A stretch of 64,000 nt of DNA from Ceratodon purpureus (Eukaryota; Streptophyta; Bryopsida; Pseudoditrichales; Ditrichaceae), in contig CM026421.1 in the NCBI GenBank assembly GCA_014871385.1, positions 18,208,158 through 18,272,157 of the forward strand, in the 5' to 3' direction. Each line of letters begins with the position of its first letter. The stretch's first letter is position 1. The translations under genes were made by a program, and so were the position numbers. A model generated the notes under the pieces. The model was given only the letters and a program-made list of their open reading frames with translations. It was not told where the DNA came from and searched no databases. This document shows positions 19,116-64,000 of this stretch, piece by piece.

Positions 19116-19135
19116 GTTGTGGTAGGCGATGTGAG

Positions 19136-23338: not shown

Positions 23339-23339
23339 A

Positions 23340-36000: not shown

Positions 36001-36023
36001 AGAGTAAGTACTCACTTTGTAAG

Positions 36024-36071
36024 TACCGGTTGATTAACTCCAATACAAGATTAGAAGTTAATCAACCGGTA
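36024..36071. repeat. 16-bp perfect inverted repeat (hairpin)
   Basis: TACCGGTTGATTAACT (36024-36039) pairs exactly with 36056-36071 across a 16-base loop. Farther out, CACTTTG (36013-36019) and CAAAGTG (about 36099-36105) also pair, so a larger imperfect foldback of about 93 bp is possible. Confidence 0.7.
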
Positions 36072-38333: not shown

Positions 38334-38341
38334 CTTTATAG
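38334..38341 (-). promoter_or_regulatory. TATA-like box in a GC-rich island, minus strand
   Basis: CTATAAAG on the minus strand sits in a GC-rich stretch (about 38280-38490) that contrasts with its AT-rich surroundings. Downstream on the minus strand, pyrimidine-rich leader-like sequence follows, but no recognisable protein is encoded (a 91-codon frame at 38165-37890 has no family resemblance). It may be the promoter of a non-coding transcript or of an old LTR. Confidence 0.25.
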
Positions 38342-39857: not shown

Positions 39858-42800
39858 AGTGGAGCACAAATATTTGAATTTTATGTAAATTTTACATCTA
39901 CTTTTATTCTAAATCAATTCATAATTAAGTCAAACTATAACTTAGAAACCATGTCTAATTTGAGGCTTGGTTCATATTTTTATGTAATATAAGTTATAGC
40001 TTGTTGTCCATATGAATCATCAATTCTAATTTATTATCTCAAGTAGCCATTTATATAGCAAATTATGTCATTTGTATTATCTACAAGAAGTTGTATTGGC
40101 TTAATTATAGCTTTTGAATTTTGTGATATTTTGATTATAGCAATAGTTTTCAAAAGAACTTATTGTTGTTGCTATAGCTTCAATAAAATGATCATATTCT
40201 TGTGGTGATATATGAGTCAATTTTCAACTTATTTTAAATGATGCACAAGTGCTTCAAATACAACATTCAATCAACAATTTGCATCCATTGATTACTTCAT
40301 CTCTTGCAATGATAGGTGGATAATTTCACATAAAAATAATGCTGATTAAAATACAATATTTTTTTTTTTGAAAGAATTGTTGTTTGATTCAATAAATTCA
40401 TGTTCTATTCAACTGGTATAAGTTAACTAATACTAAAGTATATAAGAAGATTTAGGTTAAAACTTTTTACCATCTTTTCAAAAATAGTAAACAATCTTTA
40501 AAAATATGCATTAAAATTGCAAAATAAATCCATTCTATTTAGAATGAATATGCAATCATTTTAATATAACATGAAATCAATAAAAATATGATTGAATAAA
40601 GTTATCAAATCATGCACCATCATTTTTAAAGTTACCTTCAAAAAAAATAGTAATTCATCTCATACCATAAGAAGTTGTTAACAAAAAGCTCAACCAAGCA
40701 AAGACAGTTTACAATGCATCTGCTGATTTTTTGTATTGGATTACTAGATGATTTTTGTATTGGATTACTAGACAAGTTTATAACCAAGCAAAAAGCTCAA
40801 CCAAGCAAAGTTCAACCAAACTAAACTTGTCTTTGTTGAATTCTAAAGTCACATGTATTAAATCTAGTGTAAGCAAGAAAATTAAAATAGAGATTCCTAG
40901 TTATAGTTTAGATTTTTTTGTATACGTGAATGTGAAACACAACATGTTTGTGAAAAGATTAGTGGATATGGTAGCAATTGATTTTTTTTCTTTTCAAAGG
41001 TGAAGATTATATTACATAATGGATGTATTTTGATAAACAATCATTGTGTTGATCTTAATCACATCTCGTGCACATTTTAGCCTTTGTTTACATGCCATAA
41101 TTAACTCTGAGGAAGATTCAAGGTGCATTCATAGACAAGATGATGAAGTAAGATCATGTAAATCCCTTGCAAAAATATATCATGGCTTGTGATGGATCAT
41201 AATCCACACAATTTGCAAAACAGGTGGGTAATATGAAATTGAGTATGTGCGGGTCAATCCTTTGAAGAATTGTCATTCTGTGCAGATATCCCATCATAAA
41301 ATTGAAGCATGGAACTGAGCAGGTGACTAGCTACAAGACTACCAAGGTTGTTCTTCCCGTAAAAAATAATATCATTACAAGCTCAATGGGCCCTTTGATA
41401 GCTTTGTTCAGTCCCTTCTCAAGGGCCTCGGGCGCACTGCAATTTCAAATTTACTTGGTACTTCACAGGTAGTAGCTGGTATTTTACTTTGAAGTCACAC
41501 ATTTTTCAAAATCTCATTTTTGATTTATGAAGACATACAGCTATAAAATTTTAATCCAACTATCCAATTTCATCGAGGTTCCATTGGCACTTGTTTGAGT
41601 AAAGTGTGCTAACATTTATGGGGTAAATGTCATATATAGTATTGTTAATTTCAACACATAAAGATTTATGAAATAAAAATCATCCAAAAAATGCAGCTTC
41701 CCTACAAAACAATATAGGCAATAAGGGGTTAAGTAAGGTGAAGTCATAAAAAGGAAGTCAGAGAAAAGCCATGCAAAAACATGCCAATTGTATATAATCT
41801 ATATGATTATTTCACATGACAGGCCAAGGCCATTTGGAGCTTTGACATGTTTGGATCCTTGTAGAATTCACAAAATAAAACCTAAGGGCTTTGCTCATAT
41901 GGATTGCAGATATTTTCTAAAATTTGTATATCAATGGATTGAATTTATATGCATCAAACACAGAATATTACACAACTTGACAAAGAAAATTGGGTTTGAT
42001 CAAAATAGAAATCCAATTCATTTTCCTTGGGCCATGTCAAATTTTCCTCCCTTCTTGGTGCATCCCAATATTTCATGTGAATTAGCTTTAGATTTAATTG
42101 GTATCGACTGTCATGTAAATTGTCCCTCAGGCTTGCGAAGAAGATCCAAATGAGTTAAACTTCTTGCAAAACATGTTGCATCGTTGTTGGTTTTGAAACC
42201 TCCATGACTTCCGATCTCATTTTCTTGGCACAAGAGAATTAAGTTTTTTTCAGTGATACAAAAAAAAGCCCTGACCTACTTCAGAGTCCAATTGGATGAA
42301 TACGGGAAACTTGTTTTTTGGTGAAATACACATGTGCCAACATCCACAGTTGGCACTATGAATAGTCGTACAATTGTCATTTTTAGATGGTGGATGATAG
42401 CACAACTGCTCGAGAGTGTGCGAGAAAGCCCATTGGAGTTCATTAGATCCACACATAACTTACAGCTAAGCCTTTCTTTGCCCCAAAGCAATCTACTTTG
42501 AATTCCATGCTGAGGCTTGCTTGTGATTTTGGACTTGTCATAGCAAATAAACCATCTAACCTACATGTGACTAGTTTGAAGGAAACGCAAACACATGTGA
42601 AGATAGTTGTTCAATAGGAATCAAAACCTAGTTTAATATATCTATTTTGGGGAAATGGGGTGAAATTCAACCAATAGCTTTGCCACCACATGAATTCAAC
42701 AATCTGGGTATGGGCTTCACATTCAGAACCAAGTCGTTATATTTTGGGGGAATGCTCTCAAATAGTAGTATACTGCTCAGAGAGAAACAGATTTAAACAA

Positions 42801-43751
42801 CAGTGGTGGGACTCAGAAGATTCATTTGTAGTTTGTCTACTTTTCTTTCATGCAGTCCACACAAAACTCTTCAGCAGAAGTAGAAAAATACAAGAAAAAT
42901 ATAACTTAATGTTGAAATTAAAGTCATAGATCATCAAACTTAATAAAATTGTCGCTACATGCTTAAAAAAAATTATCTAAAAAAAATTAAAAAATTAAAA
43001 TTGAAACTTAATAAAATCCACGTGGTTAAATTAGCCATTCTTCTCAAAACGAAATGCTAAATAAAAAATAAAAAATGAAATGCTAAACTTGCATCTCAGG
43101 TCGTGTAGGTGGTTTTTTTATTTTCTATTTTCCATATAATAATCAACTGGATAAGTCCAAGTGAGTAGTCGTATATTTGCTTATAATTGTATTTTGCTTG
43201 CCATTGACAATTTGTTCTCATCTGGATGGGCCTGGATCATTGATTCATTGCAACTATTGGTGTGGCCAGAAACCCCTCAAAGGGGTCACACAACAAGTGG
43301 GCATACAATAATAACTGTGGCAAAGCACATATGCATCAACTCACAAGTAAATGATTGGAACTATTGCAATTCCAGGGGACATTAGGAACATATTCGTCGT
43401 AAAACAATGAGATAGGAACCATGGAATGTTTTGGGAAACTGTCCCAATTCCTGAACAAGACAATGCTTCACCAAAAAAAATTCGGTGAACAAAACTACAC
43501 TAATCTGGCATTTAGTGTCACCTCCTACCTTAGTTGACCAAGGTCACATCTTTTTACTCTTATCTCTTAGTGCCCAGAGTAAAAATAGAAATTGTGATTT
43601 TATACCTTGGTAGCTTAGAATAGTAAATCCTTATGTGCATCTAGACTATCTCGTGCACCTTTTTTTCCCATTAGTATCCAAAAAATTCATTTCTAGAAAA
43701 TTTTAATTATTTATTTAACATCCTATAAATATGGATATGAATGCTTGGACA
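39858..43751. other. AT-rich intergenic stretch, no gene recognised
   Basis: Repeated phrases (AAGCTCAACCAAGCAAAG at about 40688 and 40788; GATTTTTGTATTGGATTACTAGA twice near 40725-40770) show small local duplications. The 121-codon frame at 41788-42153 has no family resemblance. AAGGGGTTAAG at about 41726 resembles a TTAA-element end, but no partner end was found. Confidence 0.45.
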
Positions 43752-44065
43752 ATAATCCCCGCCCTCGTTTTAATGACAAGGCGGGCCCTCATCCTCCTCC
43801 CCTTTCTCCTCTCTCCCTGATTATATTTTTTGGAGGTCTACGGCCCCTTTTAGTAAATTTAATAATTTTTAATGGAATCTGAGACCCCGAATTAACCTTG
43901 GGGAACCCACTAATTTATTTTTAGTTAGTTTACGTATTGTTTTATTTTTATTTTTAATTTTAATTTGTTTTTTCATTAACAAGCAAAATCTAAGGGGCTT
44001 TTTGCCCCCTCCAATGGGAACCCTGGTTGGGGGGGCCTTGTCATTAAGACGAGGCCAAGGTTTAT
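43752..44065. mobile_element. Inverted-repeat element (MITE), about 314 bp, family uncertain
   Basis: About 31-bp terminal inverted repeats share the core CTCGTTTTAATGACAAGGC on the left and CTCGTCTTAATGACAAGGC (reverse complement of the right end). The subterminal regions are GC-rich (GGCGGGCCC, GGGGGGCC), unlike the AT-rich surroundings. I could not fix a target-site duplication, so the superfamily is not called. It is non-coding. Confidence 0.65.
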
Positions 44066-46294
44066 CACCAGAATTATGAATATTGTTATCTTCTTGGGGA
44101 CTTTAAGATTAGATAAGTTGTCGGCCCCTACCTTCTGGACTACTTCTGAACTTAACTCTCAAATGTTTTTCAGATTAAAATAAAAGAAATAGATTGAAAC
44201 AAAAAAAATAATTAAAAATATATATTTAGATTGAAAATTCAATGACTTAAATGAGTTATATCTAAATTCACTTTGATTTATTGGTTAAACTATCTAATTA
44301 CAATTCAAATTTGTTTTTAAAAAAAACATACAATTGAAAGTGATTTCATAATTTTTGAGCAACTATAAATATTAAGAATATATATAAAAAATAAAAAATA
44401 AAAATTTTAAAAATAAAATAAAAAATAAAACTTTGAATATGGAAAGAAAAAATTAAGAAAATTTTGTATTTGTTTTTTTTTAATTCTTTATTTCTAAAAA
44501 CATTGGTTCCTTTGCTTTCTCAATTTCACATTCTATTCTTTTGCTTGAAACTTTTAGAAATTGTGAACTCGTCATTAGAGTTATCTTTAAAGTCACCTTG
44601 TGTTTTAAAAAAAAACCATGAGTTTTGCTTTAATGTTTTTTTTTTTTAATTTTTTATCTCAAATAGTTAGAAGACATGGAAGAACTTGGTGGTCTCTAAA
44701 CTCAATGAAAATCCTTAAAAACTAGTTTTCCTTAATGACAAATAACTCTATTAACACTTCCTTGTTTATATCTCTTCCAATTTTGCATATTTTTGAATTT
44801 TTTTGATACCATATACATTGAAAGGAGACCAATGGTTGTTACTATTGTAATGATGTATTGGTGCTTCTACACGATAACACAACATGTTATCAACTACTTA
44901 TAACATTGTAAGAATAAGAATTGAATACCCAGAAACACAAGGAGATTGTATATTATAGAAAAACTCTGCGTAAAATTATGGGAGATACCAAATTTGCAAT
45001 AATAACGTGACAAATTATATTGAAAATAGTAGAAGTAGCAAATGATGCATTGAGCTATGAGAAAAATAATAATAAAAGAAACACATTTTTTAAGAAGAAA
45101 GGCAACTTCTGTCGAAGAAGAGTCGATAGTAGTAGGTAAAATGTTGATTGTTTGGGGAAAAATGTCATTTTCAAAAAACATTTCTAAAATAGAATTCTTA
45201 GTTTATAAAGCTATTTGCAGGGACTGATTTTATTTTATTGTTATTTTTTTAATATTTTTGGGTCATGTAAATGACTTTGGAGTAATGCGGATGCAAATTG
45301 AAGGAGATACTTGAGTCCAATACACTTATTGAACCATGTAAAGAAAAGAATGTTTGTCACCTCTTTTTTTTTCCTCCTACATCATTTGGACAAATTTTAC
45401 ATAGTGTAGAGCCGAAACCCAAGGGCTTGTTGGTTGTATAACATAAAAAAATGTGAAAAAAATTGCTTATAGGATTTGGCTTTGAATACACACAAAATTC
45501 TTGGTAATTGATATACAAAAAATCCAAAAAAACAATCATAGTTTTATTTTAAGGCTACATAATTGAAATTGTATATTGTCATGGAATCTTTCCGACAAAT
45601 TGGATGACTCCATACAATGTTTTACGTTGAAGATATTTGCATTGACTTGGCCAAATCTTTGAATGAGTGGGGACAATATGAGAACTTCTCAAGCTTGTAC
45701 TGGGGATGTGATAACACCTACACATTGCCCCATGTGAACACAAATTCATACCAAAGTTCAATACCACAGCTTGAAACAAGTTGAGCGGATTGGCCAACCT
45801 CCTCTCTAAGAATTGTAACAATTGAGGATGTCAATTTCAAAAATTCATATGAATTTTTCATAAAGAACCAAAAATATGTTCATTTTGGAGTTCTGCATGA
45901 AAGTCTTAGATATTTGTAACACAGTTTATGCCACCCAAAAATCAGGCAACACATATGCCAAACAACTTAAACTATCAGGATCTGTGTCCTCTACCTCAAA
46001 TGAGTGGCTATGCAATACGAAGTTCCCAACCTGGAAACCAAGTCTTTCAGCTGCTGATGAGGAACCCAAGGGGACCTTGTGGGATGTGCAGGATATGCAG
46101 ACAGATTTTAATTTTGTTTAATAATACATTGCACATCTCGGATCATGTGAAAATAAAAAACCAGCGTGACCCATCAGCAGATTCAGTTATTTCTTGGGAG
46201 AATAAGAACAGGACATCTTACTACCACCACAACCCCAACAAATGTTTAACTTCTTTTTGAAAATGATGTCTGACCAGCTGCGCTTGAGGACTTA
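44066..46294. other. AT-rich intergenic stretch, no gene recognised
   Basis: Only short A/T-driven frames. Two overlapping plus-strand frames at 45876-46260 are open together but show no motif. Confidence 0.45.
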
Positions 46295-46670
46295 GAGCAT
46301 CTACAGCGATGGTCCACAAGCCGTCAAACAGGAGAGTTTGAAAGGGCCGGAGGCCAAACCGTCCCGCACCGTTGCTCCAAAGCGGGATTTAAGGATTGAG
46401 GGCCCGTTAAAATTACTTCAGGGCTCTGGCGCCTCCAGAGTCAAGCAAGGGCCCTTGGGCGTGATTATCGGCTCTCAAGAGCAGACTTCGAGACAAGAAA
46501 CTCAATCTCGGGAGTCCCAGCCACGTACGTGTCATCACGTAGAAGCTTGAAGAGTGAGTGTTGAAGGGCACCGCTGCGGGAACAGACCATTTGCCCTCGA
46601 GGAGGATGCTTCAGGCCACGCTAAACATCTTTTTGAGAGCCCGGCTTGTGGACCATTGTTGTAGATGCTC
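46295..46670. mobile_element. Tourist-like MITE (PIF/Harbinger type), 376 bp
   Basis: The ends are GAGCATCTACAGCGATGG and, on the other strand, GAGCATCTACAACAATGG. The inverted repeats extend about 29 bp (on to GTCCACAAGCCG) with three differences by eye. A TTA duplication flanks it (46292-46294 and 46671-46673). The TTA target and GAGCATCT-type ends fit PIF/Harbinger MITEs. No transposase is encoded; the 70-codon frame inside is incidental. Confidence 0.88.
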
Positions 46671-48024
46671 TTAGTGTTTGCACACCAAATGCGGCTCACT
46701 TTATTTCTCTCCAATTACGAGCGTGGCTCGAATGCCATGCTTGGTTGGGTCCATTTTGTAGCCCTCTCCGTGTTAGCATTCCATGTTTTTTTTTGCTAAA
46801 TTTAGTGCCATATGTCCCAAACTACTTTGTAGAGGTCCTCTTGATGAAGAAGGACTCCATTCAAACATATTAATAGGGGCAAAAATTTGCCCCACCCCTC
46901 TCAAACATGGGCTCCAAGCCACATTCGATGGAGGGATTTAGGACTTCTTTACTAGTGATGAGTGTTTTAACGCGCCAATGGCATATGTCTAGTGTCATTT
47001 TTGGCACCGAAGTCTTTTGTGCACGCCAACACCATGATGGCGCCCCACCAATGAACCTCCCACCAATAGCAACAGACACCTTACCAGCGACGCTATCCCT
47101 TCCATTGGAGTATTTTGGACTGCTCCCCCTACGGCTCCTTCGTGGCAACTTCGAGATTAGTCCCTCACCCAATTCCTTGTACATTCCAAAACCAGTCCAA
47201 TACAAAACATATAAAGTCAATCCAGAAAACAAGGCACCAAGAGTTTGCCCTCTTCATTGCAACATGGCGTTTCAGACATAAAATTTGGCGTTGTTTCAAA
47301 GCTGTTTGGAGTTGGTGCTTCGCTAATGGAGAAACATATACCTTTGACCTTGTGAATAGTGTGGCGATTTTACTATTGGCACGGTAAATGGACCGTCAGC
47401 GGAGAAGCTCTTAGACAATTCCACCAAACGCCTTAATGACTAAGCAAGTTTTGATTGTCACCGCGAAGTATCACCTTGTGGTCCATTGGATAGCGAGAAA
47501 TTACTTAGTATTCAATTAGAAAAATTGGAGTATTCAAAAGCTTGAAAATACCACTTGACATATCTTCTTTTGAATTTGGTCAATGCTCTTGGCTAAAAGC
47601 ATCCTCAATTGTTAGTCCAATCAGAGACACCAACGGGAATTAGCAAGCCCTCTGCTAAAAAGCAACCCTAATGGAAGGTGTATGTCTCACGCCAGTTAAG
47701 TGGGACCCGCCAAACATCGCCCGCTCACGCCAAATTTTTCATTTATGAAGGGAGATGTATACTTCTTGCTAAACTGAATTAATGATGCATCTATCAATCA
47801 AATAGCAGGCTGTTTTGACATGCGGTGGGGCCACAAAATCTAGTCCTGTAATAATAACGAGAGCGACCACTCTTGGCTTGACATATCAAAGCCCGGGTTT
47901 GATCCCATGGCTACAAGGTGAGTGTCCACTGGGCTTAACACATGGCGAACTTCACACTCTACTGTCTAATGACCTCCAAAGCCCGTTTGGAGGGTGGCTA
48001 TGACAAGTCACGATTAGGGATGCC
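46671..48024. other. Intergenic stretch with a possible old inverted-repeat element
   Basis: AGCATCCTCAATTGT (about 47596) and, on the minus strand, GGCATCCCTAATCGT (ending about 48024) may be the decayed ends of a roughly 430-bp MITE abutting the TTAA element at 48025. The 124-codon frame at 46907-47281 has no family resemblance. Confidence 0.35.
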
Positions 48025-48971
48025 TTAATTCCTAAAGGTCCAGGAAAGTGAAAACTACTTTTCGTTATTTCGGGCAGCTTAGATGAAGGGATTAAAATTT
48101 ATATTTTTGTCTAAGATTTTTAGTGGACGTTCTTTTTACCGTGATGTGTACAGTGTACGTCGTAAAATGTGCAAAGTCAAATTCCAATTTTAGAACTTTT
48201 AGCTAGAAATTTTAGATTTCAATTCAACTTTGGGCAATTTAAAAATAGGTTATTTTTTATTTTTGTTTTTTAGAAATATGTTCGTAACTAAATCACTATT
48301 CAAATTCCAAAGTGACTCAAATCAAAAAGTTTATCAATTTTTGAAGGACAACCTCTAAATATTACACAAACAAGCTTCAAAGTTTTTTGTAATTTTACAT
48401 TTTTTCCTTTCAAAATCAAAATTTGAGATTTAAGAATTTTTCAAATTTTTTTTTTTTCCATAATTTACAAAATCATAGATGTAACTTCTCACCATTCACT
48501 TTTTTACTAAACCAAAAAACTTTAACATTATTCAAGTTTTACCATATTGGGATTTTTCTACCTTGTTGTGGAAAATAATTTGGAGACATAAAAATGTACC
48601 AAAAAATCATTATGATGTTTCAAAGGATTTTGATGGAGGTCCCCAATTCATCTATACGGAAAAAATTTTGAGCAAACTGTTTGGGGTAATAATCATCAAG
48701 CCCTCCTTTGCACCATTTAGACTATGCCTTTTTAGCAAAGCGAAAAAATCTTTTCAATCAACTTTGAACCTTATAATCTCGCAAATGGTACAGATCCAGC
48801 GCTTGAAATTGAACCTGGTGTTAGTGCAAGTAGTTAGATTCAAGATCTTACGGTTGGAAATACCAAAAAAGTAAAAATGATTCAAAACATACATCAACTT
48901 CTACAAGGTGGTCAGAAATTGCAGTTTTTTGTTTTGAAGGTCCCAAAATACCTTGGACGTTTAGGGATTAA
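48025..48971 (+). mobile_element. TTAA-bounded non-autonomous element, copy 2 (subgroup A, 947 bp)
   Basis: It starts TTAATTCCTAAAGGTCC and ends GGACGTTTAGGGATTAA. Its interior aligns by eye along its length with the element at 50625-51561: GATTAAAATT.ATATTTTT.TCTAAGATTTTTA near the left, and ACAAGGTGGTCA..AATC/TT..GTTTT near the right. No transposase. The copies are visibly diverged, so the insertions are old. Confidence 0.85.
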
Positions 48972-49284
48972 CAACCATGCCCACTGTAGAGAGAGAAGCC
49001 ACTAAGAGCATGTGCACCGCAAGGATTTTTGCCCGGCCAACCTCAAATACTCATACCCAACTAGCCACCCATAATCAATCAATAAACTTCTCCATTTTCA
49101 AATTCAAAATCTAAAGAAATCTAAAAGAGATTACTAAGCGAGATTGGTAGAAAAGGAATCGTAGGGGAATATTTTAATAGTAGTACCATGATCAAGTTTT
49201 GGTATCATAGTAGTAAGTTTTACATTAGCCTATATATGTACCATATGTGATTTCAACTTTTCACTTCAAATAATTGTAATTATT

Positions 49285-50212
49285 TTAATCCCTAAATGCA
49301 CTGGCGACCAAAATGTGGTCGCATCCTATTTTGGGCAGGCTGCTACGCCTTCAAAAACAATTATTAAGTTTTGAGCTTTTGTATGTAGATTCCTTAAGTC
49401 ATTACGTACATGTCAAGCTTTGTTTCATATGATTCTGATATGTAATGCAAAAGTTATGAAGGATTAAAGGTTCAAAATCTCAACGCGGGCAGCATATAAA
49501 AACTCAAATCTTTTTCTAAAAAATAAATTAAAACATCATCATTTTCTACTGATTTGTATGCACATAGGAAGCTTTGAGCCATGCCAATCCAATAAGTGAG
49601 GTAAGAAATATGAGAAGTCATATTATGCGGGCAGTTCGGTCAACTCTTCATCAAAAATAACTTCAACTATTGATTTTGAACTCGATTTTAGCAATTTTCC
49701 AAAATTAAAAATTGGAAAAGTTTTTGGTTACTTGTTACACCATTTTCATCGTTGGAACTAACAATATCTATTTTCATGTGGACAAAATTAGTAGTTTAGT
49801 ATTTCCTTCTATTCTACATCTTATTTTAATTATTTATGGTTTGAAGATGAAAATCAAGGTTTAATGTTTTGAAATTTTTTGTGAAGAATCTCAAGTCATT
49901 TTTTAAATAGAATATGCAATTTCCCATTCTAAAATTCTAAAGCATATTTTCTGAAAATTCGTTGAAGACAAGATTTTAGTTTTTTGAAGGATTGGAAATA
50001 ACTTGTCTTGGAAGTTTAAACAACACGATCTTGTGATTGTTTTGGTTTCTGACTCTAAGAATTTGAGAAATAGCTTTTTGATGAGTTATTTATAAGATCC
50101 TACGGTTGAAATTGCAAAAGAATGTTATGAAATTAATAAAATCAGCTTGCTTTACAAAGAGGTATCAAAAGATAGTTTGAGCCTGAAATTTTCAAGAGCA
50201 TTTAGGGGTTAA
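49285..50212. mobile_element. TTAA-bounded non-autonomous element, copy 3 (928 bp)
   Basis: It starts TTAATCCCTAAATGCACTGG and ends AGAGCATTTAGGGGTTAA. The ends match the other TTAA elements, but the interior is not obviously similar to any of them. No coding sequence. Confidence 0.75.
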
Positions 50213-50624
50213 TATTGAGAATAAAATTATGAAATTTTTTGCATTCAACAAGAACCTTATCTTTATACACATAAAAAATCCTCTTCAAATTATATACCTC
50301 AAAAACATATGCTAAAATCTTTAAGTGGTCAGTTTTAGGTTTATTTACCTTGGTTGTACACTTCCGTGGCCAAATCTAATTCGTAATGGGTCAAGTTTGA
50401 GCTCATCATCCACCATAATAGACAATTAGTGACTCCATGGTTTTGAGTTCAATAATTTCGAACATATCTTTGGAAGTCATGCATTGCTATGTAGATTAAA
50501 AATCTTTATTATTTGAAATCATAACTATGTTTGATGTGGTTTTTGCTAATTCAACATCACGTTATTTGATAACCAACACTAAGTAGAATCAAAGAATGAA
50601 GTTTGCATCCTCGGATGGGAAGTA

Positions 50625-51561
50625 TTAACCCCTAAGTGCCCAGGAAAGCCAAAATGGCTTTTTGTTGTTTCAGTCAGTCTAGATAAAGAGGTTAAAATTG
50701 ATATTTTTTCCTAAGATTTTTACTGGAGGCTCCCTGTACTGCAGAGTGTATGTGGTAAAATTTTCATAGCCAAATTCCAATTTTAAGACCTTCATCTAGA
50801 AATTTTAGGTTTCAAGTCCAAAATGGGCAGCTTAAAATTGGGCTTTTTTTTTAAAAAAAAAATATTGAAATATGTTCATAACCAAACCACCACTCAAATT
50901 CCAAAGTGACCCAAGTCAAAAAATATACCAATTTTACAAGGGCAGCCTCTAAAAATTACAAAAACAAACTTCAATATTTTCAGTAATTTTTGATTTATTT
51001 CTTTCAAAATTCGTAAAAATTTGAGATTTTGGAAATTTTCAAAAATAATTTTGCTAAAAAATAAAAAAACTTATAAAGGCACCTAACCACCGTTCGGATT
51101 TTTCTAAAACCAAAGATAAGTAACATCATGCATGTTTTAATACATTAACGTTTTCAGACCTGCTTCTAGAAAACAATTTTTATGAGAGCCAAAAAAGGAA
51201 TGAGTCTCTCAAATTTTCCATGGAGGTACTCAACTTGATTACCTACATGGAAAAAAATATAGGCAAAATGTTTGGAGTAACAATCTTCAACTCCCCGTAT
51301 GCACCATTTTGACTATGTCATTCAGCCAATGCCCAAAAAAAGTTATGCTGCAACTTTGAATATTATAATCTCTAAGATGGTAAACATCCAACGGCTGAAA
51401 AGTTTATCAGAACTTATAAAGAAGGTTTAGTACAAGATCTTACAGCTGGATGTCTAAAAAGAAAATTTATTTGGTACAAATCGTCGTTTCGACAAGGTGG
51501 TCAAAAATCACTGTTTTGGAGGTTTTGAGACCCAAAACTTGCTTGGGCACTTAGGGGTTAA
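50625..51561 (+). mobile_element. TTAA-bounded non-autonomous element, copy 4 (subgroup A, 937 bp)
   Basis: It starts TTAACCCCTAAGTGCCCAGG and ends CTTGGGCACTTAGGGGTTAA. The terminal inverted repeat including TTAA is about 18 bp. It is full-length similar to the element at 48025-48971 in the same orientation. No transposase. Confidence 0.88.
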
Positions 51562-52393
51562 AGAAAAGAATGAAGAATGTGACATCTTAGTTTTCTTGTG
51601 TTTTATTTTTATTTTTATTTTTATTTTTTATCAAGGGAGCTAATGAAGTTATTGAGGTGATTGGATTCACTGGTGGCATGCAGATGGGGAAGAAGAAGCA
51701 GGGAGGGTCATGGGAGCCCAGTCATTGGTGGACAATCTTTTGAACAACAACAGGACAAAGCCTCTTCCAACCTAAGATATCACCACTCATGGCACTCCAC
51801 AGATTGAGCTCGCTAAATTTCTGCTGCACAAAAGCCTGATTTCCCATCATTTTGATTCCAGCCATGAGCCTTGCCCCCAAAGAATCTCCCCAAAAGTGGC
51901 ATAAATTGACAGAGCATTGAGCAAAGAGCATTGCATTCTTTTGCAGTGGAATATTAAATTTCTCCCTAGCTTGTGTGTTCAATAAAAAGCCATTCAAAAG
52001 CATGATTTAAAATTGGGATGCAATGCCCCTGTCGCCCACGCCCCAGATCTTTGAAAGCCCCAGCTCCCGGGATTGCAAGGCTGCTCCCCTCCCCTTTCCA
52101 TTCAATGGGCAACTTCTGAGCCCACTTCTACACCTCGGTAACCCGGACTTGTAATTGGCTAATCAGGTCGTGGGAAATTCCTTTTGCCGGAATATATGTT
52201 ATATTATGGTGGAGTCAACCAAATAGCTCCCAAACAAACAAAATTGCAATTTACAAACGGATATCTCTCCATCAGCCATAAAGCCTCAAGAGATATTACC
52301 AAAATTTGCTGGATTTGAAGCTGTAAATATCCCTCTTAAAGTAAGATTTTGAAAATTGATTTGAAGTTGGTGCAGCGGAAAAAGTTGTGAACT

Positions 52394-52395
52394 TT

Positions 52396-52434
<39 letters not shown>
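52394..52434. repeat. (TTTA)n microsatellite
   Basis: About nine to ten tandem TTTA/TATT units in a row. Confidence 0.95.
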
Positions 52435-52436
<2 letters not shown>

Positions 52437-52785
52437 AATTTTACACAAACAAATAACTTTTACAAGTTGTGAACTTTGAATCGTGAATTTATGTTTTGTT
52501 TGACGAGTATTATCTAAAGTTCTCTGATGAATTTGAACTTGCCTTGTGATACCACTACTCATTTTTTTTGGGTAGAATTCCATGGATTGGAAAGATAAGA
52601 GAATTTGGAGTTAAGAGAATTTGGAGTTAAGAGAATGACATTTATGGGACTTTGCTTTTATAAGGTGAGCGCATCTTGATCATGTATTTAGTAAGAGATT
52701 GCATTCCGCAAAGTTGGAACTCTTCACCACGACAATTCATTTGATGTTTGATGTTTTTCTTAGTAGAGGTGATTAAATTAATACC

Positions 52786-54327
52786 TTAACCCCTAAAGTT
52801 ATGAGGGTATTTTTCATCAAAACTGCCTCAAAACAGCCCCCACTATAAGAAACCCGTGTTTTTGAAGACATCCCGAATCATGTTGAAAAAAACAAGTGGA
52901 CGCTAGAAAGGATGTCGTGCAGACATGGAAACATCTAAGACGTAGGGAAAACAAATGCGGACATCCGAAAAAACATGTAAACATCGCCATAGCACGCGCG
53001 TCTCCGGGTGATTTCGAGGGCCGGCAAAGTCTGCAACGTGGACGCCACGTCATGACACATCAGCAGTGAAATTTTCCGGGCAGTGCCGCATGGGCGGAGG
53101 ATGTCACCGCTGCCATGGTGACGTGGCGGACAACGTGGACCCGCCATTTTCTGACGTGGCCGCGGGAAAATCTGACGTGTCAGCCGCGAAAGTCCAGCGT
53201 GGCCTGCCACGTAAGCATAGTTTCGTAATTCAGAAAATAAATGCACTATATCCTTAATTTTTGTATATTAAAAATTAATATAAAAACCGAAGTACACAAA
53301 TTAGAAATTCAGAAATCACAATATAGCGAACGGTATAAGCCATTTGTCATTGTAAATGATATTGCGAATTGATTTCAGAACAAAAAATAAAAACAATGTC
53401 TTTAATTCCTCCTGGCTTTTTGTCCTCTCCCTTTGCTGACCCTGCCCAACCTCTGTTTTTCTTCACTGCGGGCAGGAAGTTACCTCGCAGTCTGGTAACT
53501 TCGCACTGTTTTTACTGTCAGTGAAAACGAGACCGTTGCTGACGTGGCACTTTCACGTTTCCAGGGATGTCCTCCGCCATGTCCCCGCAGACGTATAAGT
53601 TTTTTTAAACATCTTCACGTTTTCAGGCTAGCATGCACGTGTCTCGGCACGATCCGCCCAGTTTACCTCCAAAAATACGTTAACGTCCTCACCTTCTTCA
53701 AGACATGAATGGCCAACATGCGGACATGACAAAAACACGACCATGTTTTTGGAGAACATCCCCAAAAACACGGGTTTCTTATAGTGCCCTCTTCAAAGCA
53801 AGGTGGATTTTGCAAACTTGGGGTCCTTTTTAGTACATCTAATTGTAAGATCCTGTAGCTAACTTCTATGTCTACATGTCCACCAAATCTCACACACTCA
53901 TTCTTCACCCATTGCATGATCATAATGTTCAAAGTAGAAAAACAAGTTTTTTTCCCCTGTGAAGAAAGGGGACAACAAAGTTTTGAAAAATATCAAAATC
54001 TCAATTTTTGGTGGAATTTCAAAGTTTCATCTTTGGGCAGATTTTGGGCAGTTTTGGGCAGTTTTGGGCAGTTTTGGGCAGAATTTGCTGCATTCATAGT
54101 GGCTTAGAAAATTTCAGCAGCTGCCCAACAAGCAGCTTTTGACAGTTAAACCTTCATAACTTTTGATCCCGATGCCGGAATTGAAAAATAAAAATATGCA
54201 CACGGAGCTCTCGGAATGGCACACCTCCATTTAAAATTTCAGAAAATCACGATTCAAATTGCAACCGTAGGTACATACCTAAGTTTCCAAAAAGCCCATT
54301 CTAGGACTATCGTCCTTTAGGGGTTAA
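52786..54327. mobile_element. TTAA-bounded non-autonomous element, copy 5, interrupted by a CACTA element
   Basis: It starts TTAACCCCTAAAGTTATG and ends CGTCCTTTAGGGGTTAA. Taking out the CACTA insertion at 52841-53786 plus its CCC duplication leaves about 593 bp. The right half holds a small array of TTTTGGGCAG units (54031-54081). The interior differs from the other copies, so the shared ends define the group. Confidence 0.78.
52841..53786. mobile_element. Non-autonomous CACTA (En/Spm) element, 946 bp
   Basis: It starts CACTATAAGAAACCCGTG and ends with the exact reverse complement; the terminal inverted repeat is about 24 bp, through TTTTTG. CCC flanks both sides (52838-52840 and 53787-53789), the 3-bp target duplication typical of CACTA transposons. 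Subterminal regions are crowded with GACATC/ACATGG and GACGTGGC motifs in both orientations, as expected for transposase-binding sites. No transposase is encoded. The near-perfect ends suggest recent mobility. Confidence 0.92.
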
Positions 54328-54439
54328 TAAGATATACTACCTTAATAATAGAGGCTTGTTTTGTTTTCAATGTATCGTATTACAAGAAGAGGTCCAAGCG
54401 TATTCCATAGGCATTTTAGTTTTTGGCAAATTCAATTTC

Positions 54440-55261
54440 TTAACCCCTAAAGGACGAAGCAACCACCATTAGGTTGCTCCAGAAATAGAAAACCTAGTAA
54501 AATGCTCTAGAAGGTTCGGATTTGAGTGCTTTTTGTTCCTAACCTCTTTAGAATCAAGTTGGCAATAAGGATACGCTGAAATTTTAGTGAAAAAGTGAAA
54601 CCCTGATTTTAGAAAAAAGAAACAACCTGGGTCGGTGAGGTGTTTCTACAGTGAAGTAAGTGTTTCTATAGTGTCAGTGTTTCAACCAAACTTTGAGCAC
54701 ATAGAAAACTGAAATGAAGATCTCTTCTTGTGGATTTTTTTTAGCAGTATTTTTTTTTTGGGAGATGCTTGTATGACCACTCTTTTATGGCTTCACCGTT
54801 TTGGATTTATCAGAAACCCTTTTGATTTTTCCAAAAAGTGCCGTGTTGAAAGAAATAAAATTCAAAGTGATACTTATGTCAAACCCATTTTCTCCAAATT
54901 GGTAACTTGGAAAAATCTAAAAAGAACTGTGCATGTTCCTAATATACTAGAGAAGAGAATTAGCTTTAGTTGCCAAGTTTTTATAAATTTCTGAATCAGC
55001 AATTTTCAGTCAAACTTGGAAACTCACTATTAGTATTTCAGAAATTCACTAATCTTCCAAACTTCACATGTTATTATGTTTCAATCCGTTGCTGCTCCAA
55101 ATCCAAAATTTGGTACAAATTTTGGTAGCCCACTACTTTCAAAGATCTTACACTTAAATTGCTTATGGTGATTCTCAAATTTGTCTCACTTTGGAAAATG
55201 CAAGAATAACACTGAAGGTACTGAAAACTGTACAAATACCCGTCCGTCCTTTAGGGGTTAA
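54440..55261 (+). mobile_element. TTAA-bounded non-autonomous element, copy 6 (subgroup B, 822 bp)
   Basis: It starts TTAACCCCTAAAGGACGAAG and ends CGTCCGTCCTTTAGGGGTTAA-type sequence. The inverted repeat inside TTAA is 13 bp, CCCCTAAAGGACG. It is homologous along its length to 39857-38972 in the opposite orientation. An 88-codon frame (54728-54994) is partly shared with that copy but has no recognisable motif. Confidence 0.88.
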
Positions 55262-58200
55262 AAGAACTCAATTTAAATATCAAACCAAATATTTTTTTTC
55301 TAACCTCATATCCCATAGTCCTTCTGGAAGAAAAGGAAAAAGAAATGTGTATAGCATGTATTCTACAAAAGAGCATATAATACAACCCAATTGGTTCCAA
55401 GTTACTGCAATATGCACACATATGTATTCTTCAATAATAAAAAGATTGGTCGTGTCATATCACTCAGAATGTGATGGCCTATTCTTTTCGTATTTTGCAA
55501 ACTTTATTATGAGTCCGAGTCTAGTATGTGCAAATGCATGTACAAGCCTCCCTATACAATTATTATTTCTCCTCAAACCGACACCCCCAATAGGGTATCC
55601 GCACAATTGAGACTTTCCACTCTGAGATTCTGAAGCACACACCATTCTCTGGGACTTAAAACATGGCCTGCTAGACATAAAAAGCTATGAGAAATCACTA
55701 TCCAGCATTGCTCAAGTTTTTTCAAGTATGTTCGGATGGCTAGCTGAAACTTATTTGCCGCACAAATCAGCTTCCACATCTGAGCCGCAGTTTCTACAAC
55801 TACATAGTTTCCAGTTGTAGTTGCCACAATCCTGTAGATATCTTGTAACGTACTGCTTAGCGTCACTTCGATCCACAAATCAAGCTACCAAGTTGCAGAA
55901 AATGTGTAACTTAGAACTCGCAGGTTTCAAAATACTCGGTAGCATAGGTTGTGTTGGACATGCAGAGGAAGGGAGGTCACAATCCAACTCATGCAACCAT
56001 CCAGTGCACAGCACACAGAAGTTTAGACTTGGCCGCTGCTGCAGTGGCTTTTCAGGCCTGATCCGGCTATCATGCAGGGCTCACAATTCAATAATGCAGC
56101 TAGATTGTGGCTCAGCGAATAATTCCATTGCAGAGTACGTTACCTTAGTGTATCATGAACTGCACAGGATTATGGTGGTTAGAGTAGACACTGTAAGAGC
56201 ATACGCACGGTAGCCTGACTATTGTCAAAGTACCCATTTCAGACAGTTATGGTTTTCTCTTCACATGGTCACCTTGTAGGATTATGCTAAATGTCCCTTT
56301 TTAAAGAAGAAACTATGGGCAGATTTGTCAAGATTTGAGTTTTTGAGTTGATAGGCAAAAAATAAAACTAAGTTATCCTGGAGGTTGAGGGAAATCTAAA
56401 GCAAGAACTTACATGTTAGAACCATGAAATAAAATAGAACTTCTTCATGAGAAATGAAGTCGCTTTCAAAAAAGACACTTATTAAATAATTAAAATACTC
56501 ACAATTAAAATATGACACAATCTTGAGATATGTAGCCTATGAAGGATACACACAATAATGCCCCTATATTTTGTTAATAATTTCTCTGTAAATTTTTATT
56601 TTTATTTTTATATTCATGCTCTCAAGGTATATGCAAGAGTTGCACACTTTGAAAGTCACAGAGATATATTAAAAAAGGATTAAAAAAAGAGACTAAATTT
56701 CAACTTGTTATTGGACTGCTCTTCATTTTCTTCGAGTCCAGTTTTTCATTGGAGGTAATGCAGGAGATGCACTTAGAGTAGAAATAAACCTTGTTGATTT
56801 CAATGAAATGATCTTAACTTAGAGACCAAGACAAAAAGATGGAGTCTTCACTTAAACATTTCCCACAAATTCAATTTCTCACCAAATTTGAAATAAATTA
56901 TATGCTTTGAAAGTTGAGTAAAGGGGACAAAAGGTATAAAAATCTCAAGAAATATCATGTTGATCCACTATGCCTTTAATTACAATCAAGGGAAAATTTT
57001 GCACCTTCTATTTCACTAAGTAGGTGTACTCATCAACACTTTTTTGGCTATAAGTTGGTTTCTATGGCTTGAAAGGTCCTACACTTAAGCAAGCATTTAC
57101 ACATTGAGAATACATTGATGGTAATTGGTGGTATATCAACGACAAACTTGTCAATATACTTTTAGAGTACATTAATTGTAAACTACTGTAATTTACTATT
57201 TTCACATTTTATCTTATTACTTCATCTTTTTTATCCTCTTGAATTTTAGAATATTCTATTTCACTCGCTTAGCTTTGTGAACATATGATTAGTTTTTGAA
57301 TTTTATGAAAATTAGAGCTTCAAACAGTGAAAAACTATTAGGACCCCATCTTTTTGTCTTGGTCTCTAATTGAGATGTTCCTGCTTCTCCCTTTGAGCGT
57401 TTGACTAATTCTATTGCATTCATTCTGTGTTTGTTGAATGGCTGTTGACCCTAAAGCTGCACAAAAAAGCACCGCTGTAAGAACTAGATTCTTCGCATTC
57501 ACAACAGAGCCAAGTTCCCTTCATGCTGAACATTGCTAACTTAATTGAGAACTAAAAGACTATCAAAGACTTTTGTGTGAACTCAGTGCGCCAACTAGCA
57601 TTTTTTATTTTTCTTTAGATTTTGGGAACAATCCAAGAAAATTCATTGCAGAAAGAAAATTTGGTACAGCTACATGGACACAGCAGGAAATTTGGAATCA
57701 TTCAGAACCCATTCTCTACTGCTGAAGACCCATTCTACAGCAGAACAAACTACACTCCACCCAATCCTTCTGGCGGATGAATAGCCTGCTAAATTCGTGA
57801 CCTTATCAAAGTGTTTCATGATCTTGGAGCTTTTGGCTTTGGGGCGCTGATGAAGCTGGTTGGTAACAAAAATTGAATGGTTGTCTAGAATCATTGATTC
57901 TTTTCATTTATTTTTTCACTATGAAAACTCAAAATTTACTGCGACAGAAAATACACAATCATGCCCCAGGGCAGGAAAACGATCAAATACTAAACAGTCT
58001 ACAATGCTAGGTAATCTTCATTCCAGATCTAGACCAGAAAATTCTGCATTGCACTCCAACAAGAGTTGAACTTGTACATATTGGCACAAGGATTTTTGTA
58101 CAATAGCCTTGTACAGTGGGGTCCAGAAATAATTCGAATTTTTTTTTTCAGTGAGAAAAATTTCAGTACTGCCTACTTTGAAAGCCTCCCGAGAGCTCGG

Positions 58201-58611
58201 ATATTGATATTTCACCACGAAATTTTTAGCAAAGAATCATCTACAAGTTAATTATATGTATGCCATTTTTCAAGGCCAAAACATTTATCAAAAAAAAGTT
58301 ATTCAAAAGCTACCACCAAGGATATGTTTCACTGTTGCCAACTTTGACAGCCTCCCAAAGATTGATTTTTTACTTTTTGGCCATGAAATTCTTGGAACAA
58401 AGTCCCCTTTATGTTGATAACATATGATAGAAAGTTTAAGGCCAAAAGACAAATATCAAAAAAGATATCAACAATCTACCAAAATGTGTAGTTGTCTGAA
58501 ACAATGGAGGAAACCATTTCATTGAAACCAACGGATGAGAAATTGTCCATTTACCATAAAAATTGGCGAACAACATGCTCTTTATCATAAAAAAATTCAT
58601 GCCAATTTTTC
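55262..58611. other. AT-rich intergenic stretch, no gene recognised
   Basis: Short frames (for example 55821-56213 plus, 55573-55878 minus) have no motif. Two similar phrases around 58185 and 58350 (TTTGAAAGCCTCCC/TTTGACAGCCTCCC, followed by AAATT or AAATTCTT) suggest a small old duplication just before the LINE. Confidence 0.4.
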
Positions 58612-59706
58612 GAACAGGCTCTGCCCGACCATTTCGCCCGACCGCGAAAACTCGCCCCGCTCCTTGAAGAGGAGTGGCCAAGACAACTCTTACAGTTGCC
58701 CGCAGCAGAAGTGGAAATTCTCCCCCTGCCCCCGGCCTTATGCCGTCCAGGGTTCACCCCGCTTCACATTTCCAGCTTGCTCCCCGGTCCTCCTCGTGCG
58801 CCTCCTCCCCCTCCTGTGAACACACCTGCTCCGATTATTCAACTAGATACGGAAGATGAAGAAGTCTCAGCGATTATGGTTGACATGGACTTGGACGTTC
58901 TCCTAGAATCGCAAAAAAATCTCCATCCTCCTCATCAAGCTGAACTCTTCGATTCCAGCAACTTAGAGCGAACGGAGACCCTTCCCATGCCAGCTACCGA
59001 TTGCCTTCCAGCTCCCCTGGCTGCTGATCCCACCTGGTCTTCTTTGCGAGAGGCAATGCAAGGCCAAGATTGGCTCTCTACTGTAGCACAGCCAGGCCAG
59101 CAACACTCTGCACCCCCACGCGATCGACCCCTCCAGCAGGGGCTGCAATCCAGCCGACTTCCAGGGCCGCTTGAACCCGCCCACCGCACGCTCGAGCTTC
59201 TAGAGATCCCTCAGCCTTCGCAAGGACGGATTTTCTTCAATCCCACTTCGGATGATGAAATCGAAGACTCAGGTGACGCTGATGACGCCTTCCAGGACGC
59301 CGAAGCCACCCAATTTTCTCCCACCCGCCACCACCATGGTCTAGTTCTCGATCCTAGTGCCGGCACCCCTCCTATTTCCTCATCAGTGATACCGTCTCCG
59401 TTCTTCTCCACTCCTCCCCGTCGGAAAACTGCTGAGGAGTTTGACATCGAGCGAGCTGCCCAACACCTGCGCTCCTTAACAGCTGAGCGTCTTAGCCCTC
59501 CCTCCCCCATCACCTCATCCCTAGGCAGCTCTTCTCTGCGAGCCGCCAAAGCCTCTGCTCAAAGCCAGGGCAATTCCCCCTCTGTTCCTCCACTCGCCTC
59601 TTCTTCCCCTGGCTTTGATGCCTGGGGCATTCGCCGTCTATCCACCTCCCCCAACGCTGAAGGCGCTTACAAACCTTCAACCCCCAGAGTTTCCAGATGC
59701 ACTTAA
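58612..59706 (+). pseudogene. LINE ORF1, 5'-truncated
   Basis: The frame is open from about 58600 (FARPRKLAPLLEEEW...) through to the stop at 59704-59706. The product is rich in Pro, Ser and acidic residues (APIIQLDTEDEE, then TSDDEIEDSGDADD). There is no initiating ATG near the 5' junction and no recognisable RRM or CCHC knuckle, so the RNA-binding part may have been lost. Its stop overlaps the ORF2 start by 10 bases (ATGCACTTAA), a stop-start arrangement. Confidence 0.65.
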
Positions 59707-61741
59707 AACTTCTTACCTTCAACCTTCGAGGCTTGAACGATAAAGCCTCCATTTCCCTGCTCCAACACTACATTCGAGCAGTCCCCGCCGTTGACATCCT
59801 TCTGCTCCAAGAGCATAAACTCCGGCGGGCCGCAGCAGCTTCCTTAGGTAAATTTCTCTGGCCTCAAGCAGGAGCTTGGACGCTAGACGCTAGCCCTGGT
59901 TACAATCAAAATGACCAAGATGATGGCGCTGATTGCGGTGGCGTTTGCATTTTGGTCAATCCTCGTTACACTCAGTTTGTCGTCCAATCCGGGTCGGTCA
60001 TGGGCAATAGAGTCCAATGGATCATTCTGCGAGGGCTTCCGGGCGGAGACGTTGGTGTCGCCAATATCTACGCTCCTAATCAGTCCAGTGACCGGTGCGT
60101 CTTATGGGAGCTTATGGTCGCAAAACTCCCCACTACTTGCCGCTGGATCCTGGCGAGTGACTTCAACATGGTTAAAGCCCGCCAGGACAAAACCAACCCC
60201 TACAGCCGCCTTGTTCCCGCTGGAGAACGCCTCCTACTCCAGAATTTAAAGCAACATTTCCGCGTTTCAGACAACTGCCGCTCTCCAACCAATTTGAAGT
60301 ACTCGTGGGACAATTGTCGTGGCGATTCAGCCCGACTATTGGCACGCCTCGATCGCTTTTATTTGTTTTAGAGCAACCCAGGTGATCGAGCTCGGACCCT
60401 CCTCTCTTATTTGATTCGCGGCAACAGCGCCTGGAGCGACCACTGCCCCGTTGAGTTGACCATACAACTTGAAGTTGACACAGTTCGAAAGAGCAGGTGG
60501 AAGATGAATCCTTCTTGGCTCGAAGAAGCCCGAGGAGACATTGAACGCCTTTGGCGCAGCCAACAGCCAAGCAAATCCTTTTTCTCCAAGTTGAAGGTGG
60601 TGACTCACTTCTACCGTACCTTCTGTAAAGCCAAAGCCCGAAGTTACAAACAGAAAGAAGAGACCCTCACGTCCGATTTAGAAACTACAGCCACGGCCCT
60701 ACATGACGATCCTCTTGATGCCGCTAAGCAGGCCCAGCATGGCGATATCCGCCAACACCTCCAAACTTTCCTCACCCGCAAGGTCGCTGGCAAGCGGCTC
60801 AGGGCCCGGATCAGATGGGGCATCAAAGGCGACATGTTGAACACAGAATTTTTTCCGCTCACTCCGCGAACACTCTTCTGCAACTGCCATCACCCAACTG
60901 CGCACTGCCCACGGTTTAAGTGTCTCCGCCCCCTCAGAGCTTGGCGACACATCAGCGACCTTTTTCGGTAAGCTATATCGCCGGACAGAGCCTTCGCCAC
61001 TTCACGACGCCGCAATGGCCGAGTCCCTGGCCCTTCCGAACCGTCAATTCTCGGCAGAGGCCATCCATGTACTAGCACAGCCTCTTTCCGACTCCGAGCT
61101 CCTCGCAGCCGCTAAGGCCATGGCTACTGAGAAGAGTCCCGGTCCCGATGGCATAGATATTCTCTTCTATGTCAAATTCTGGCCTATGCTTGGAGTAGAA
61201 TTTACCCGCATGATACAGTCCTCGCTGGAGCGAGGAGCTCTTCCCATGGCATGAACCGAGGCCTTATAGCCCTTCTGTTCAAAGCTGGCGACCGTGAAGA
61301 CCTTTCGAATTGGAGACCAATCTCACTCCTGAATACATCATACAAAATTTTGGCCAAAGCCCTTCAACGCCGGCTCCAACCTCTTATGTCTGATGTTATC
61401 AGCAGTGATCAGACCGCCTTCCTCCCCGCCAAGTACATCCTAGATAATGTTCTCCTCCAACACGAGCTTGTGGCATGGGCCTCCAAATCAGACTAGGACC
61501 TTCTGCTCTTGAAGCTAGACTTCAAGAAGGCATACAACACGGTGTCGCTGCCCTTCCTATTCCAGACCATGCGTTCATTTGGCGTCCCAGAGCACTTCAT
61601 GACCATGGTCGAAATTCTTTTTACGAACGCCGCGGCCACTGTTAATCTGAATGGTGGAGAGTCGACACCCTTTGAAGTGCAACGGGGCGTCTGGCAAGGC
61701 TGCCCGCTCGCCCCGTACCTGTTTCTCTTTGTCGGAGAGAT
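59697..61741 (+). pseudogene. LINE ORF2: endonuclease-reverse transcriptase, broken
   Basis: The endonuclease begins MHLKLLTFNLRGLNDKA with LLLQEHKLRR and ANIYAPNQ, and LASDFNMV marks the catalytic core (residues 1-225). It is followed by the linker and RT: KSPGPDGID (61135), NWRPISLLNTSYKILAKAL (61310), DQTAFLPAKYILDN (61408), LKLDFKKAYNTV (61510) and GVWQGCPLAPYLF (61685). In-frame stops lie at 60369-60371 and 61494-61496. The frame shifts near 60850 and near 61250. It cannot be active. Confidence 0.85.
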
Positions 61742-61759
61742 CACTAGAGCAGAACAGTG

Positions 61760-62760
61760 TCCAAAGTGACGTCGTTTAACGCGGTTTTAACGCGGTTTAA
61801 CGCAGTTTAACGTGGACAGTTTTTTTGACGTAAAAATTGCAAAAAGGTCACGGACGTCACTTTGGGTTGACGTGCTGCGTCAACCTTATGTTAAACCAGT
61901 TAACAAGAATTAACGCGCTGCGTCAAAAGTGACGCAAATTGAAAATATGGAAGTTACCCAGGGTGAGTAACTTTCAGGGTGACGTGGACATTTCCCGCGT
62001 TCCTGGATGGATGAAAAATTGGCTGACGTGGCACAGAAATCGGAAGTGTCAGTTGGGTGCATCTATGGCCGAGATTTTGACACGTGGCGTGATCTTCGAT
62101 GTGGTTTTATTCTCTGTTAACGTAGACGCAGTGTGACGTGTTTTTCTGGTTCGTCACCGGACGTTAACTTTGACGTGATGTGACGCATAAACTAATGTGA
62201 TGGGTACTTTTACGCGTTTACAGAGACGTTTTCAGACATTGGACTATGTTAGAGAAAACAACTATTTCATGCACCCAATTCAAATATTGTGTCAAAAGAA
62301 ATACAGCATTACGTCAAAGTAGACGCTGATAAAGAGGTTTGCTAAGTATTTTAACGCGTTTACGGAGACGTCAGTAGACACAGAATTATGAAAGAGGAAA
62401 CAAGCATTTCATGCACCCCATTAGGATTTTGTGTCAAAAGTGACACAATACTTTGACAAAGTTGACGCGTCTAAACACGAAAACCAGATAATAACGTGTT
62501 TCTTGAAACGCCTTTAGACGTACTCTGACGTGGGCAATGTCACCCATTTGAGGCATCCATTTCCAAATTTCTGTTAAATGAAACACAAAGCTATGTTTAT
62601 CTTGACGCATGGACAGCGTCCATTATGACACACAGTAGCGTGATGTAGTGTCCAACCACAACGTCAACAGTGACGCAACATAACGTTTTCCGAGACGTAG
62701 AACTATGTCATATATAACGTACTTTCACACAAACATAGACGTCACTTGAAACGCGAATTA
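61760..62760. repeat. CACTA subterminal repeat region (TGACG / TTAACGCG motifs)
   Basis: At least 20 copies of GACG occur on the plus strand in about 1 kb, many as TGACGT or TGACGC, and there are more on the other strand. AACGCGGTTTTAACGCGGTTTAACG occurs as a cluster at the left edge. In En/Spm elements such arrays bind the element's own regulatory protein. Confidence 0.75.
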
Positions 62761-62984
62761 ACAATGTTGATCAGGTTTATTGCAAAACGCAAATTAACAT
62801 CACTGATGAATACAGATTACTGAAGCCTAGTAGTTTGAAAAGTATGTATGCTACATTTCAATGGACAGCCATTCAATAGCATAATGGAAAATGGCTACCT
62901 GTGCGTACTGACAGCCAGCACTTTCCTACAAAAATGGCTACAATCTACTTCTTGCTAATGCTGGTTTCCTGTGTTGGGTTCTTC

Positions 62985-63930: not shown

Positions 63931-64000
63931 AAATGTTCTTTACACAAGCAAACAATGTACATACGGAACCACAGGTGCGGTAACTGTTACAATTGGTTAC

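Follow-up and report, generated by a model that had tools for sequence, protein, structure and literature searches.

A cluster of short TTAA-bounded elements with piggyBac-like ends in a 64-kb stretch of probable land-plant DNA

Analysis of a 64-kb stretch of contig CM026421.1 (64,000 nucleotides, hereafter the window) revealed six short DNA elements, E0 to E5, which are bordered by TTAA and carry C-rich terminal inverted repeats. Their assignment as non-autonomous, TTAA-specific cut-and-paste elements is well supported. We further propose that they form one TTAA-targeting lineage of 593–947 bp, resembling miniature inverted-repeat transposable elements (MITEs), with at least four families and probably moved by a piggyBac mechanism, a combined proposal for which we judge the chances to be evenly balanced. 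The six elements are as follows.

38972–39858, minus strand: E0, family A, 887 bp, TTAA at both ends; inverted relative to E5, with the end at 38972 damaged.
48025–48971, plus strand: E1, family B, 947 bp, TTAA at both ends; ends TTCCTAAAGGTCC and TCCCTAAACGTCC.
49285–50212, plus strand: E2, family C, 928 bp, TTAA at both ends; ends TCCCTAAATGCAC and CCCCTAAATGCTC.
50625–51561, plus strand: E3, family B, 937 bp, TTAA at both ends; 13/13 terminal inverted repeat CCCCTAAGTGCCC.
52786–54327, minus strand: E4, family D, 1542 bp including an insert; the right arm is on the 52786 side.
54440–55261, plus strand: E5, family A, 822 bp, TTAA at both ends; 13/13 terminal inverted repeat CCCCTAAAGGACG.

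An earlier annotation made from the letters of this DNA (the sequence-only reading) had described five TTAA-bounded elements with terminal inverted repeats, and all five were confirmed in place. The sixth, which it had put at 38972–39857, is also present, with its true end at 39858. With this element included, TTAA borders all 12 ends. The heptamer CCCCTAA stands exactly next to TTAA in eight of them, C-to-T variants were found at three (TTCCTAA once, TCCCTAA twice), and the remaining one, the 38972-side end of E0, is damaged (CTTAAAGG). The terminal inverted repeats match at 13/13 positions in E3 and E5, at 11/13 in E1 and E2 and at 9/13 in E4, that of E0 being damaged. Furthermore, exact TTAACCCCTAA occurs eight times in the window, as compared with 0.03 expected copies, and none of 100 shuffles reached eight.

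The set contains two pairs of full-length copies. The segment 54439–55265, containing E5, aligns in inverted orientation to 39859–38968, containing E0, with 81% identity counting gaps, or 88.5% once 77 gap columns are excluded (816 aligned bases). Similarly, 50617–51561 (E3) aligns over its full length to 48017–48971 (E1) with 70% identity. In both pairs the similarity ends at TTAA or at most 8 bp beyond it, and the flanks differ, indicating that E0–E5 are copies of mobile elements rather than sequences with coincidental ends. The Kimura distances of 0.126 (E0/E5) and 0.385 (E1/E3) show that the pairs are not fresh duplicates. On sequence comparison, the six elements probably represent four families of one lineage (A, E0 and E5; B, E1 and E3; C, E2; D, E4). 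No full-length copy of E2 or E4 was found within the window, and the case for these two thus rests on their ends and on right-arm homology. The TTAA on either side of each element would derive from the duplication of a single TTAA. The joined flanks of each element were searched against the window. The only matches of any length were to those flanks themselves; what else came up was short chance similarity, simple repeats or element ends located inside the 150-bp flanks.

As a control, copies of one palindromic 4-mer separated by 80–3000 bp were paired, and the pairs were kept when an inverted repeat of 11/13 or better followed directly inside them. As a result, six TTAA pairs were obtained (E1, E2, E3, E5 and two AT-rich pairs), versus a total of two for the eleven other palindromic 4-mers. 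Once the threshold is lowered to 9/13, the control loses its power to separate (24 pairs for TTAA, 54 for AATT and 5 for TATA), so that E4, with its 9/13 repeat, is not significant by this control alone, and E0 is missed even at this threshold because one of its ends is damaged.

A second shared feature lies in one arm of the elements, and its copy in E2 is as follows.

50094–50113, plus strand: block AAGATCCTACGGTTGAAATT in the right arm of E2, lying 119 bp inward of the right end.

A block resembling AAGATCYTACRGTTG is located 119–130 bp from the right end in all six elements, their orientation being set by the shared sequence, and retains 13–20 of the 20 bases of a consensus that we drew from the alignment; the counterparts of the E2 block in the other five elements keep 13 to 18. 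In a consensus-free test with one element per family, the summed identity of the block was 42, versus a maximum of 37 in 60 shuffled runs. A 16-base form of the block, allowing up to three mismatches, has seven copies as compared with 1.35 expected, a number reached in none of 100 shuffles. Indeed, the right arm is partly common to the elements outside the terminal repeat as well, with z scores of 8.3 for E1–E2, 13.7 for E1–E4, 5.9 for E2–E4 and 11.2 for E3–E4, none of which was reached in 100 shuffles, and the similarity is also clear for the copy pairs E1–E3 and E0–E5. Left-arm sequence is partly common to E2 and E4 (z 7.1) and to E3 and E4 (z 3.8).

E4 had been listed as a single element at 52786–54327. 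Its TTAA bounds stood, and a second transposon was found nested inside it.

52841–53786, no strand assigned: nested CACTA-type element, flanked by CCC on either side, whose inverted ends CACTATAAGAAACCCGTGTTTTTG match perfectly over 24 bp.

This insert has the CACTA..TAGTG ends and the 3-bp duplication of CACTA-type elements, and a six-frame scan detected neither a Pfam domain nor a transposase in it. Removal of the insert together with one CCC copy shortens E4 to 593 bp, and TTAA and CCCCTAA mark each of its ends. E4 also contains tandem TTTTGGGCAG copies at 54032–54081, and GGGCAG recurs in E1, E2 and E3.

The coding capacity of the region was analyzed by Pfam scans. No domain was detected in the six frames of 48001–55403 at E values up to 1, nor in those of 41001–48000 and 55401–58399 at E values up to 0.1. 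In 36001–41000, DUF3301 and ZSWIM4-8_C matched below their cut-offs and were taken as chance. The six frames of 9151–14149 and 26501–31499 yielded gene fragments only. Elsewhere the search covered open reading frames only, in 1–9150 (one), 14150–26500 (three, annexin) and 58400–64000 (six). The proposal of the sequence-only reading that these are MITEs mobilised in trans agrees with what was found in one respect: the elements are short, have terminal inverted repeats and TTAA borders, contain no recognisable coding domain and would need a transposase from elsewhere. We do not file them as piggyBac members; a piggyBac-type identity is our best guess from their sequence.

From the anatomy of the elements and its likeness to piggyBac, we infer how they may move. 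A transposase supplied by an autonomous relative elsewhere would bind the C-rich terminal repeat and a right-arm site, the one-sided block being a putative added transposase binding site. The enzyme would then cut at the TTAA–CCCC junction via a hairpin bearing a TTAA overhang; the ends would be joined to a new TTAA, leaving TTAA on both sides. Such hairpin and TTAA-overhang chemistry is described for piggyBac, whose ends are asymmetric with internal binding sites, 35 and 63 bp being enough for certain activities (PMC7351741).

Two superfamilies, piggyBac and Kolobok, are described as TTAA-specific (PMC9587614), and the sequence-only reading had named a transposase like either of them. The piggyBac-like alternative fits better. 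The first three bases are CCC in eight of the 12 ends, with a C-to-T change in three and damage in one, and CCC is the start of many piggyBac ends from animals (PMC10813416), CACTA and CCCAT also being listed as piggyBac starts in the same paper. The 13/13 repeats of E3 and E5 fall within the 12–19 bp given for piggyBac inverted repeats (PMC2872659). Since CCC starts 8/12 ends and the two purines expected of Kolobok start 0/12, a piggyBac-like enzyme is favoured, if unproven.

Several observations weigh against the reading of a single lineage moved by a piggyBac enzyme. The piggyBac hallmark CC[C/T]T (PMC2872659) starts none of the 12 ends, CCCT lying one base inward at ten of them, and the excerpt of PMC10813416 names four end motifs, none of which is CCCCT. 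The six-frame Pfam scans of 36001–58399 detected no transposase, and no empty site was found in the window. Neither piggyBac nor TTAA occurs in the available main text of a 2025 survey of plant MITEs (PMC12550479). As for the right arm, only in E0, E1 and E2 (3/6) does the 16-base block, with up to three mismatches, occupy its right-arm place, and stray copies occur once each in E1, in E3, at the opposite end of E4 and outside the elements; E4 likewise fits the 20-base consensus best at its other end (16/20 versus 13/20 at the right arm). At about 120 bp inside, the block lies beyond the 35- and 63-bp ends of the T. ni piggyBac. In the consensus-free test, the left arms scored 37, no more than the highest shuffled value (37), and a motif shared by them was rejected. 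Right-arm similarity was marginal for E0–E2 (z 2.8) and E2–E5 (z 3.7), and not above shuffles for E0–E1, E0–E3, E0–E4, E1–E5, E3–E5, E4–E5 and E2–E3. Given these weak arm scores, the link between family A and the other families relies on the ends, the TTAA target, the short block and the weak similarity to E2, which together may point to common descent. A close relationship of all six elements throughout their length was rejected, the right arm of family A compared with B and D being not above shuffles.

Among the rival explanations, the one that survives best, as a possibility that we hold tentatively, is mobilisation by a TTAA-specific enzyme that is neither piggyBac nor Kolobok, but Sola3 or the transposase of an undescribed superfamily. 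Sola elements make 4-bp duplications, and Sola3 is a third TTAA-specific superfamily; the target and ends of Sola1 are unlike those of E0–E5. The CCCC starts, found here instead of CC[C/T]T, would be accounted for by such an enzyme. Sola, including Sola1 in Physcomitrella, also resembles the present elements in occurring in plants, and among the six inverted-repeat superfamilies that a 2022 review counts for land plants, the excerpt names Sola and not piggyBac (PMC9033089). In addition, a partial assembly of the C-fern contains 2739 Sola repeats alongside 1230 of PiggyBac (PMC6890710). However, the plant Sola entry in the same review is Sola1 (PMC9033089), and the CCC starts agree with piggyBac. 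Moreover, the excerpts of the papers searched did not give the end sequence of Sola3.

Kolobok-type elements moved by a Kolobok transposase appear very unlikely. They share the TTAA target, seen here at 12/12 ends, as in the T2-MITE of Xenopus (PMC6004289), and are known from chlorophytes and rhodophytes (PMC9587614). However, Kolobok ends have the form 5'-RR..YY-3' (PMC9587614), with AG at the ends of ten Xenopus copies (PMC6004289), whereas the ends found here begin with pyrimidines.

Equally, we consider it highly improbable that these are Tc1/mariner or PIF/Harbinger elements duplicating TA or TWA, with ACCCC..GGGGT ends and a strong preference for TTAA. We know of no family with such ends. 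The palindromic TTAA does leave the duplication length ambiguous from sequence, and both superfamilies are established in plants (PMC12550479), but the outer T and A fit TTAA at 12/12 ends, for which chance, if TA alone were needed, would be about 0.3^12 or 5e-7 at 41% GC. The same ambiguity affects a test put forward by the sequence-only reading, in which empty sites showing a TTA or TA duplication instead of TTAA would speak against its piggyBac or Kolobok reading. This test is weaker than it appears, because the TTAA palindrome masks the duplication length; an empty site with one TTAA cannot part "TTAA duplicated, CCCC ends" from "TA duplicated within TTAA, ACCCC ends".

Relatives were also sought, solely with exact patterns, in public viral and prokaryote collections. 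The 17-base end matched one viral contig and six prokaryote contigs, and the 15-base end of E2 matched 15 viral contigs, whereas the 23-mer from the core of E0/E5 and the right-arm block gave no matches in viral contigs. In 21 of the 22 loci, the stored stretch contained no two exact copies of TTAACCCCTAA facing inward within 4 kb of each other. The exception, phage contig L010, holds such a pair 1167 bp apart within phage genes, and was rejected as a relative and taken as chance, since a gene runs across the supposed boundary. None of the 22 loci was a credible relative, and all were taken as chance (the sequence was inspected for L001 and L010, the rest being assessed by a pair script). Two 11-base ends by themselves thus prove little. 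That the ends of E0–E5 are coincidental is nevertheless an explanation that we regard as almost certainly wrong, since the phage pair is one case among 22 loci preselected for one end, set against the excess of TTAACCCCTAA in the window, the 11/13 palindrome control and the whole-length copy pairs stopping at TTAA, which refute it for E0, E1, E3 and E5.

A piggyBac-like enzyme remains our preferred reading, and we compared the elements with known systems. MITEs of the piggyBac superfamily, such as the coral CMITEs, are alike in their flanking TTAA, short repeats starting with C, absence of any observed coding capacity and shared internal sequence; in contrast, CMITEs are about 100 bp long (PMC2872659), compared with 593–947 bp here. 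The present elements further differ from piggyBac and the CMITEs in having CCCC instead of CC[C/T]T ends, a block about 120 bp inside one end and a probable land-plant host. They resemble the plant MITEs of the 2025 survey as short, transposase-less inverted-repeat elements in plant DNA; that survey covered 207 plant genomes, 21 of them non-flowering, and used five superfamilies plus Micron (PMC12550479).

Elements of the piggyBac type have seldom been described in plants, but plant piggyBac is asserted in print. Its occurrence is stated in PMC8086355, citing others, and in the simple summary of PMC10813416, PiggyBac is named among plant superfamilies in PMC10794571, and a table from a fern assembly lists 1230 PiggyBac repeats amounting to 122,417 bases (PMC6890710). 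The word piggyBac also appears once in each of two flowering-plant papers, on Dracaena (PMC6294377) and Stipa (PMC8319324). The term piggyBac did not occur in a paper on Ceratopteris chromosomes, and a moss paper matching the term was set aside, as it concerned "piggybacking" of expression and not a transposon. No plant piggyBac family described with its ends was found among the literature matches listed. To our knowledge, none of the classes of plant MITEs in the 2025 survey is defined by TTAA duplication together with CCCC ends. We conclude that the elements are real and their mechanism probably ordinary, the host being unusual for piggyBac-like ends.

The nature of the host was considered from other features of the window. 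A land-plant origin may be inferred from sub-threshold matches to cytochrome P450 (E 0.021) and F-box (E 8e-4; 19.7 bits versus a cut-off of 20.5), together with the repeat content. The sequence-only reading had implied a flowering plant, which is doubtful, as the gene fragments favour a spore-bearing land plant. A fragment resembling a class I cyclic-nucleotide phosphodiesterase lies at about 12486–12608 (Pfam E 4.6e-4; 20.4 bits versus a cut-off of 24.8), with PDE3 as its best PDB match (E 1.4e-4). The fragment is short, and a six-frame Pfam scan of 9151–14149 detected no cyclase domain. The phosphodiesterase domain of CAPE belongs to class I. CAPE has been found in Marchantia, Physcomitrella, Selaginella and Adiantum, and not in the seed plants examined (PMC5159850, excerpt). 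The fragment and this distribution together make a spore-bearing plant more likely.

The window also contains acyl-CoA dehydrogenase exons on the plus strand (about 26729–30690), of which the exon at 27259–27366 matched only ACAD8 in PDB at E values up to 0.1, and annexin exons on the minus strand (20349–21605), of which that at 20966–21364 had a better-scoring PDB match in animal annexin VI than in the plant annexins. A Ty3/gypsy element occupies 1–9154, with a single open frame of 2697 codons at 232–8325 on the minus strand. Its positions 1–186 are identical to 8969–9154 and are probably its long terminal repeats, the left one of which may start before the window; this identity would indicate a recent insertion. 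Degenerate pieces resembling a long interspersed nuclear element, with endonuclease and reverse transcriptase domains, lie at 59661–61766 on the plus strand. Two palindromes of about 85–90 bp, at 11797–11880 (92% self-complementary) and 14644–14732 (80%), are possible fold-back elements, and a direct-repeat cluster at 15305–15969 contains matching pairs of 53–105 bp with 77–96% identity.

Taken together, we tentatively entertain a spore-bearing land plant with a diversified TTAA lineage, possibly though not probably either an undescribed superfamily or a land-plant branch of piggyBac whose ends are CCCC and whose right arm is long and one-sided. If this is true, MITE surveys using five superfamilies plus Micron would miss such elements. 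If the enzyme is not piggyBac, the elements would flag an unrecognised TTAA-specific transposase in plants. piggyBac excises without a scar and is a common tool for genome engineering in animals. Should land plants own a lineage of it, the host range of piggyBac would be wider, with a class of elements outside the plant MITE survey (PMC12550479, as excerpted), and this lineage may supply a transposase already suited to plant cells.

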